Made by a program: the position numbers and the translations under genes. A DNA stretch of 64,000 nucleotides, from assembly GCF_016859285.1 (NCBI RefSeq), contig NC_053415.1, positions 14,525,501 through 14,589,500 on the forward strand, written 5' to 3'. Every line of letters starts with the position of its first letter. The first letter of the stretch is position 1. Positions 49,101-52,100 of this stretch are shown piece by piece. The stretch comes from Xiphias gladius. Lineage: Eukaryota > Chordata > Actinopteri > Istiophoriformes > Xiphiidae. The notes below the pieces were generated by a model. It did no database searches and was not told the DNA's origin. It was given only the letters and a program-made list of their open reading frames with translations.

Positions 49101-52100
49101 TTCTTACTTGCTTAATGTAATGCCCTGACGATTTAAAAAAAAAAAAAAAAAAAACAGGAGTACAAACTGCTAATCCTTTAAATTATCATTGTTTGAATAT
49201 ACATTTCTGCACTTTGTATGAAGGGAACAAACACCGTTACAACTGAATGTCATTACTCGACATTGCTGCTTTTAAAAATTTAATTTGTCATGCTCAATTT
49301 AATCTGTCAGTACGTTTGCACTTTACCCCCACCCACCACTTCATCTGTGTGCTCCACAGCAAAGCGGGCATCAGTGAGATGTTTGAGGGCCACCATGGGC
49401 CCATCACAGGGATCCACTGCCACACAGCTGCAGGGCCCCTGGACTTTTCCCACCTGTTTGTTACCTCCTCTTTCGACTGGACTGTCAAGCTTTGGAGCAC
49501 CAAGGTACTAGAGAGGGCACAGTGAGACTTGAGAGAGGGTCCAAGAAAAGCTTAATTATCTTGTATGGTTGAAAAGACTCCGCTGTGTGTAGGAAAAGTT
49601 CAACATAATCATGTTTTTATGTTGGTTCGCAAGTCACATTCTTTAGTTAGAAGGGTATTGATTAAAATGTAAGACTGACATCCTGACACCCAGAAGAATT
49701 ACCGAACTGAATCCTGTTTAGCCAAAAGTAGTTTCTCTCATTTTACAAGGCTTAACAATGTTCGCGGCTCTGTAAGACTGTAATTCTCATTGGAAAGAAC
49801 CAACAGGTAAAAGTTGAGGTCCAAAGTTTTTTTATCCTTAGCAGCTGTAAAATAAAAATAAAAAACTGTCAAGAGGGTGGTGGCAAATTAGTGTGTTGCT
49901 GTTTGGTTATTCGCCAATAGCGATATAAGCTCATACTGCCTGCACTCCATTTAAGTAGGTTTACGTGCCCTTTCTGCTATGGAGTACAGCCACTGGTAAC
50001 ATACTGATCTTCAGCATTGTTTAAGCCACGTTTATCATTTTAGTTTAGCAAAGACTAACACAACAGGTGATGGGAATGCCATTTGTTTTGCAGGTATTTA
50101 CATCCACTATGGAACACGAGCTGTGTGCCAGTCCATTAAATACTTCTTAAGACACTCTGGACCAAAGTGGTGGATCGGTTAACTGACCCACCCTTAGAGC
50201 TTCATGACTAACGTGGCTAACAATTAGGCAGCTTGACAGGGATGAAGAAACAGTGTTCTTTAAAAAAAAAAAAAAACAGGAGTACAAACTGCTAATCCTT
50301 TAAATTATCATTGTTTGAATATACATTTCTGCACTTTGTATGAAGGGAACAAACACGTTACAACTGAATGTCATTACTCGACATTGCTGCTTTTAAAAAT
50401 TTAATTTGTCATGCTCAATTTAATCTGTCAGTACGTTTGCACTTTACCCCCACCCACCACTTCATCTGTGTGCTCCACAGCAAAGCGGGCATCAGTGAGA
50501 TGTTTGAGGGCCACCATGGGCCCATCACAGGGATCCACTGCCACACAGCTGCAGGGCCCCTGGACTTTTCCCACCTGTTTGTTACCTCCTCTTTCGACTG
50601 GACTGTCAAGCTTTGGAGCACCAAGGTACTAGAGAGGGCACAGTGAGACTTGAGAGAGGGTCCAAGAAAAGCTTAATTATCTTGTATGGTTGAAAAGACT
50701 CCGCTGTGTGTAGGAAAAGTTCAGCATAATCATGTTTTTATGTTGGTTCGCAAGTCACATTCTTCAGTTAGAAGGGTATTGATTAAAATGTAAGACTGAC
50801 ATCCTGACACCCAGAAGAATCACCGAACTGAATCCTGTTTAGCCAAAAGCAGTTTCTCTCATTTTACAAGGCTTAACAATGTTCGCGGCTCTGTAAGACT
50901 GTAATTCTCATTGGAAAGAACCAACAGGTAAAAGTTGAGGTCCAAAGTTTTTTTTATCCTTAGCAGCTGTAAAATAAAAATAAAAAACTGTCAAGAGGGT
51001 GGTGGCAAATTAGTGTGTTGCTGTTTGGTTATTCGCCAATAGCGATATAAGCTCATACTGCCTGCACTCCATTTAAGTAGGTTTACGTGCCCTTTCTGCT
51101 ATGGAGTACAGCCACTGGTAACATACTGATCTTCAGCATTGTTTAAGCCACGTTTATCATTTTAGTTTAGCAAAGACTAACACAACAGGTGATGGGAATG
51201 CCATTTGTTTTGCAGGTATTTACATCCACTATGGAACACGAGCTGTGTGCCAGTCCATTAAATACTTCTTAAGACACTCTGGACCAAAGTGGTGGATCGG
51301 TTAACTGACCCACCCTTAGAGCTTCATGACTAACGTGGCTAACAATTAGGCAGCTTGACAGGGATGAAGAAACAGTGTTCTTTAAAAAAAAAAAAAATGC
51401 TGCAACCTGAAAAATTATAAAATTTTGTATTCATGAATCGATACACATATAGGCACCTAATATAGCAGAGACCTTAGCCCTTTGAAATAAATTGATTAAA
51501 ATAATGGTTTTCTTAATCCCCCCCCCCAAAAAAAAACCTTTCCACAGAACAACAAGCCTCTGTACTCGTTTGAAGATAACTCGGATTACGTGTATGATGT
51601 CATGTGGTCTCCGAGTCACCCTGCTCTGTTTGCTTGTGTGGATGGAGTTGGACATCTGGACCTGTGGAACCTCAACAATGACACCGAGGTACTGTAGTCT
51701 ACTCAAAGTATTCACTTTTCCTGCTACCCCTTGGAAGGAGAACAAGAATTTTGTGTATCTAGTAAGAGAGCCACACTGAAATCTTAATTCGACATGATCT
51801 GCTTCAGAGTTGGCAGAGCATGTTCCCACTCCTCTGATATTTATTCTGCGGTGTCATTGTTTTAGGTCCCCACTGCCAGCATCACAGTGGAGGGTAACCC
51901 AGCCCTCAACAGGGTCAGATGGGCTCATTCTGGCAGAGAAATTGCTGTGGGAGACTCTGATGGACGAATTCTTGTGTATGACGTTGGAGAGGTGAGCAGG
52001 CGACTCAACTTTTTAACACTGTCGTTTTGTTCTGTTCTGTCACTAAGGGTGTTGTTGCAGACGTGACTCAGCATCTTGCCCGCTATAATTTCTACTTTAG

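Follow-up and report, generated by a model that had tools for sequence, protein, structure and literature searches.

A 1.12-kb head-to-tail repeat with an exon of swordfish dync1i2: probable A-run-mediated duplication, or two alleles in series

The dync1i2 locus and its repeated segment

The whole stretch of DNA analysed, here called the window, is 64,000 nucleotides of the swordfish Xiphias gladius (NC_053415.1, positions 14,525,501 to 14,589,500) and belongs to an assembly of 690.8 Mb in 1298 contigs. The mitochondrial contig of this assembly (C1298) encodes an ND6 that agrees with that of Xiphias gladius at 173 of 173 residues, the next matches, in Istiophoridae, being at 94%. Comparison with the paralogues on C14 and C24 places the exons of dync1i2 from about 34144 to 52388, the variable 5′ exons being partly resolved. 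The gene had been named by the first-pass annotation from the letters of the sequence, and the name holds, as a 95-residue peptide from the duplicated exon and the one that follows it aligns along its entire length with cytoplasmic dynein 1 intermediate chain 2 (E 3e-59); several of the fish homologues carry the name 2a. One Sarotherodon galilaeus protein (P0014), a full-length dynein intermediate chain 2, is misnamed at its source as ‘homrobox protein Hox-C10’. Within the gene, at 45404-45643, the intron directly after the exon ending at 45529 encodes an 11-residue in-frame stretch that is also found, at the same splice junction, inside an insert of an Etheostoma spectabile gene model (P0046), and the shared stretch may be a retained or conserved piece of intron or a shared repeat. 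On the minus strand opposite dync1i2, 60283-60648 encodes a mitochondrial carrier domain (Pfam Mito_carr), which we take to suggest slc25a12, presumably the usual neighbor of dync1i2. The reading frames 30332-30634, 18433-18897 and 14886-15452, none of which has a Pfam match (0/3), are presumably exons of cybrd1 and mettl8, which neighbor dync1i2 in other vertebrates.

Between 49135 and 51397 a 1.12-kb segment of intron, exon and intron is present twice, head to tail, with the outer margins of two flanking A-runs at these positions. The features, all on the plus strand, are as follows.

48163..48296, +, upstream neighbor exon of dync1i2 (from paralogue comparison and splice sites)
49135..49154, +, left A-run (A20), the outer left edge of the duplication (from sequence)
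49155..50261, +, copy 1 of the duplicated segment: intron, exon, intron (from alignment with copy 2)
49360..49504, +, exon copy A, 145 nt, KAGISEMF...LWSTK, with AG/GT sites (matches DYNC1I2 chains in PDB)
50262..50276, +, junction A-run (A15), its left flank like the right end of the unit and its right flank like the left end of the unit
50277..51383, +, copy 2 of the duplicated segment (from alignment with copy 1)
50481..50625, +, exon copy B, identical to copy A (from sequence comparison)
51384..51397, +, right A-run (A14), the outer right edge (from sequence)
51548..51688, +, downstream neighbor exon of dync1i2 (from paralogue comparison and splice sites)

Alignment of 49155-50260 with 50277-51382 (1106 nt each, starting at the first base after the left A-run, with one further T in each copy before the next A-run) confirms the near-perfect head-to-tail duplication first noticed by eye, and yields exactly the differences then counted: four transitions (A-G at 49603/50724, and T-C at 49644/50765, 49700/50821 and 49729/50850) and two one-base length changes (a C at 49234 that is missing from copy 2 and one additional T at 50948). 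Identity is 99.64% by substitutions and 99.46% with indels counted. The exons were likewise said to be intact, identical and furnished with both splice sites, and indeed A and B differ nowhere in the exon or in the adjoining 60 nt on its upstream and 20 nt on its downstream side, and have the same AG/GT sites. All four transitions fall within 127 nt of the 3′ intron; the probability of four random sites being so tightly placed is about 0.005, and that of any four of all six differences lying so close is about 0.06. Such grouping does not discriminate between the readings considered below, as pairs of alleles and gene conversion can both give it.

The ends of the unit are sharp. The left end reads GATTT-A20-CAGGAG and the right TCTTT-A14-TGCTGC, while the middle reads TCTTT-A15-CAGGAG, so that the A15 junction is a hybrid, preceded by the bases that precede the right run (TCTTT) and followed by those that follow the left run (CAGGAG). 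Since A-runs of at least 14 occur only 7 times elsewhere in the 64-kb window, it is unlikely that two unit ends lie in such runs by chance. No N is present in the window, and hence no gap between or around the copies.

Among the located exons of dync1i2 only the 145-nt exon matches two places. When the window was compared with itself by BLAST (E 1e-20, minimum row length 80 nt), the duplication was the only direct repeat returned, the other row being an inverted pair of 77% identity. The exon peptide has five matches in the genome: the two copies, one each on C14 (79%) and C24 (81%), and on C10 a further, weak match (E 0.3). The C14 and C24 paralogues each have the exon once (0/2 doubled). A genome search with the unit gave no further copy or haplotig, its five other matches falling on the paralogue exon of C24 and on short pieces of dispersed repeat. 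Such a degenerate dispersed repeat lies in the intron at 50018-50223, with matches on C3, C11, C20, C24 and in one sampled stretch (L020). None of 16 sampled stretches of 10 kb has a near-identical direct repeat of at least 100 nt, a sample too small to give a rate. Three of the 16 have repeats of other kinds: inverted pairs (L022, L023) and a tandem array of 82% identity (L027). In the last of these exactly 500 N fill a gap at 2558-3057, and a TACA microsatellite comes directly after the gap, ahead of the array of about 82% identity.

Among the 120 homologues listed of 5582 matches none has the exon twice, and in three of them one of the two motifs used for counting is missing, with the other present once. 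A search for the truncated protein ending in QSGHQ, predicted below, found none among the 120 matches listed of 750; three of these proteins end near that point with other ends. The protein database is clustered at 90% and may hide swordfish entries, and so both of these negatives are weak.

Allelic distance and the reading frame

The genome-wide heterozygosity of swordfish is given as 0.365% (PMC10079183). The two copies differ at 4 of 1105 sites, or 0.362%, where two swordfish alleles would be expected to differ at 4.03. The copies are apparently as distant as two alleles and not newborn, and would represent two haplotypes, an old duplication, or two alleles placed in series. At the swordfish rate of 1.2e-9 per site per generation, as worded in PMC10079183, a duplication with no later exchange between its copies would be about 1.5 million of the rate's units old. 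The first-pass annotation offered a very recent real duplication or alleles placed in series. Both of these alternatives stand, and the low divergence does fit either, with the sequence by itself making no choice between them; ‘very recent’ is dropped, because the divergence equals the published allelic distance of the species. A newborn duplication with identical copies is unsupported for the same reason.

With 145 not a multiple of three, inclusion of both exons gives the frame ...STK-QSGHQ-stop, that is, a stop after five codons of copy B, and skipping of both loses the frame as well. Use of A alone or of B alone gives the same modeled protein, open to its normal end (in a partial model from 44138). 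The stop with both copies included is 127 nt upstream of the end of exon B, and coding exons of 141 and 126 nt and the last one follow. A stop in such a position in general favors nonsense-mediated decay. A real duplication is predicted to be damaging unless exactly one copy is used, because the 145-nt exon shifts the frame when both copies, or neither, are used. Given that break in frame, a real duplication would not simply give the protein one more, harmless WD unit, and in-frame gain of such a unit is excluded by the length of the exon and the immediate stop on double inclusion.

Duplication between A-runs or alleles in series

The explanation that we favor, at a probability of about 0.55, is a real tandem duplication mediated by the A-runs, in which two haplotypes would be combined and which probably segregates as a damaging variant. 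Unequal exchange or template switching between two A-runs of the same direction that flank the exon would have given the tandem unit, and the hybrid tract in the middle is the product expected from either. As the copies differ as much as two swordfish alleles do, they most likely derive from, or later recombined with, two haplotypes, and the divergence of 4/1105 against a heterozygosity of 0.365% fits a junction of two haplotypes. The gapless window and the absence of any further copy or haplotig from the genome search count for a real event as well, as does the rarity of mis-assembled duplications inside a single contig (PMC2864568). The duplication would most likely be a structural variant segregating in the sequenced fish. 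Because both exons have the same splice sites and lie 976 nt apart, ordinary splicing should include both and so reach the stop five codons into copy B. The resulting transcript would be open to nonsense-mediated decay, and the duplicated allele would lower the output of dync1i2 unless one copy is skipped.

The balance between a real duplication and serial alleles is nevertheless close. The second of these, a serious contender that falls somewhat short of even odds, is that the assembler joined two alleles, or two overlapping contigs, serially through A-runs, and that the fish has one exon. The four differences observed against 4.03 expected are just what a false allelic duplication predicts, and this counts against a real duplication, even though that reading accommodates the same divergence. 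An artefact also does away with the problem of the broken frame, while a frame-breaking change in a conserved gene should be selected against. Assemblers normally merge alleles at 0.36% divergence, which speaks against their having been kept apart here. False exon gains are a known class in the account of Ko et al. 2022, where the marks given for false duplications are half depth, gaps between copies, discordant pairs and one-copy k-mers (PMC9516828); the swordfish copies have no gap between or around them, though such gaps are on that list. Most of the false duplicated contigs were shorter than 2 kb in another study (PMC2864568). In the same account, of older assemblies, Kelley and Salzberg 2010 report that duplications within a contig were seldom mis-assembled, and that false duplications had a median identity of 98.1%, with few above 99.5% (PMC2864568). 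The swordfish pair, at 99.64% or 99.46%, is at the 99.5% mark and not clearly beyond it, and with indels counted it falls under the mark, a further point against a real duplication.

The type of reads also matters. A-runs are able to break and rejoin short-read contigs, whereas an exact join through two A-runs would be unexpected from long reads. The ends in A-runs speak for a real event only to the degree that long reads underlie the assembly, and their weight is limited because a gap closed through A-runs would look alike if both alleles had been broken there. We infer a long-read basis indirectly, from the window having no N, from one 500-N gap in other loci of about 225 kb, some of them overlapping, and from a sister assembly, that of the sailfish (Wu et al. 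2021), whose contig N50 is given as 11.85 Mb in PMC10079183. The assembly analysed is presumably the swordfish assembly of that study by Wu et al.

That the duplication is real, tolerated and fixed, with one copy used per transcript and the products of double inclusion removed by decay, so that the exons would be a mutually exclusive pair at birth, is highly improbable. The copies do agree in length, phase and splice sites, a transcript model with either exon by itself reads through to the normal end, and a length not divisible by three is typical, being that of 377 (60%) of the human mutually exclusive clusters in PMC5740500. According to Ivanov and Pervouchine 2022, exclusivity may arise from the tandem exon duplication itself, via competing RNA structures (PMC9013439). 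Against this, the intervening intron is 976 nt long with identical GT-AG sites, no enforcing feature was found, and one unit has no exact complementary stretch of at least 10 nt with the upstream intron or with the right flank. Identical exons provide no isoform difference to select, and the homologues listed have no doubled exon.

Of other origins, retroposition is ruled out by the copying of introns and splice sites along with the exon, and a transposon-borne copy by the dispersed stretch in the 3′ intron not bounding the unit.

A real event would be a natural frame-breaking exon duplication in a core motor subunit of a large pelagic fish. How the genome carries it would then be the question, with skipping of one copy, decay, or cover by paralogues as the candidates, and one could follow whether mutually exclusive splicing starts before the exon copies diverge. 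If false, the case is of a small error that is able to truncate or split the dync1i2 gene model, and the absence of a gap shows that screens based on gaps would miss such cases.

Likeness to known systems

Mutually exclusive exons (Hatje et al. 2017, PMC5740500; PMC9013439) are, as described there, neighboring homologous internal exons of equal length and phase, typically with lengths indivisible by three. The swordfish exons are likewise adjacent and homologous, with 145 nt and the same phase, and their joint inclusion gives no functional product, A+B stopping after QSGHQ. They are unlike that class in being identical, in lacking any steric, splice-site or base-pairing basis for exclusivity among the features considered (for pairing, exact complements of at least 10 nt), and in being known here from genomic DNA. 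That they are a vertebrate pair of this class at birth, an out-of-frame exon of a dynein subunit in identical copies with double-inclusion transcripts destroyed by decay, has very little probability.

With false exon gain by allelic (heterotype) duplication, as reported in PMC9516828 and PMC2864568, the locus shares a small, near-identical adjacent copy that is intragenic, holds one exon and diverges at the allelic level. It is unlike the cases reported there in having no gap, in its sharp ends in A-runs and in standing at the upper limit of the identities reported.

Tandem duplication is known to arise between short homologous tracts, by unequal exchange or by template switching. The swordfish copies, known from assembly sequence, are unlike the products of this process in being at allelic distance and not identical, and are like them in lying head to tail between two homologous tracts, with a hybrid of the two where the copies meet.
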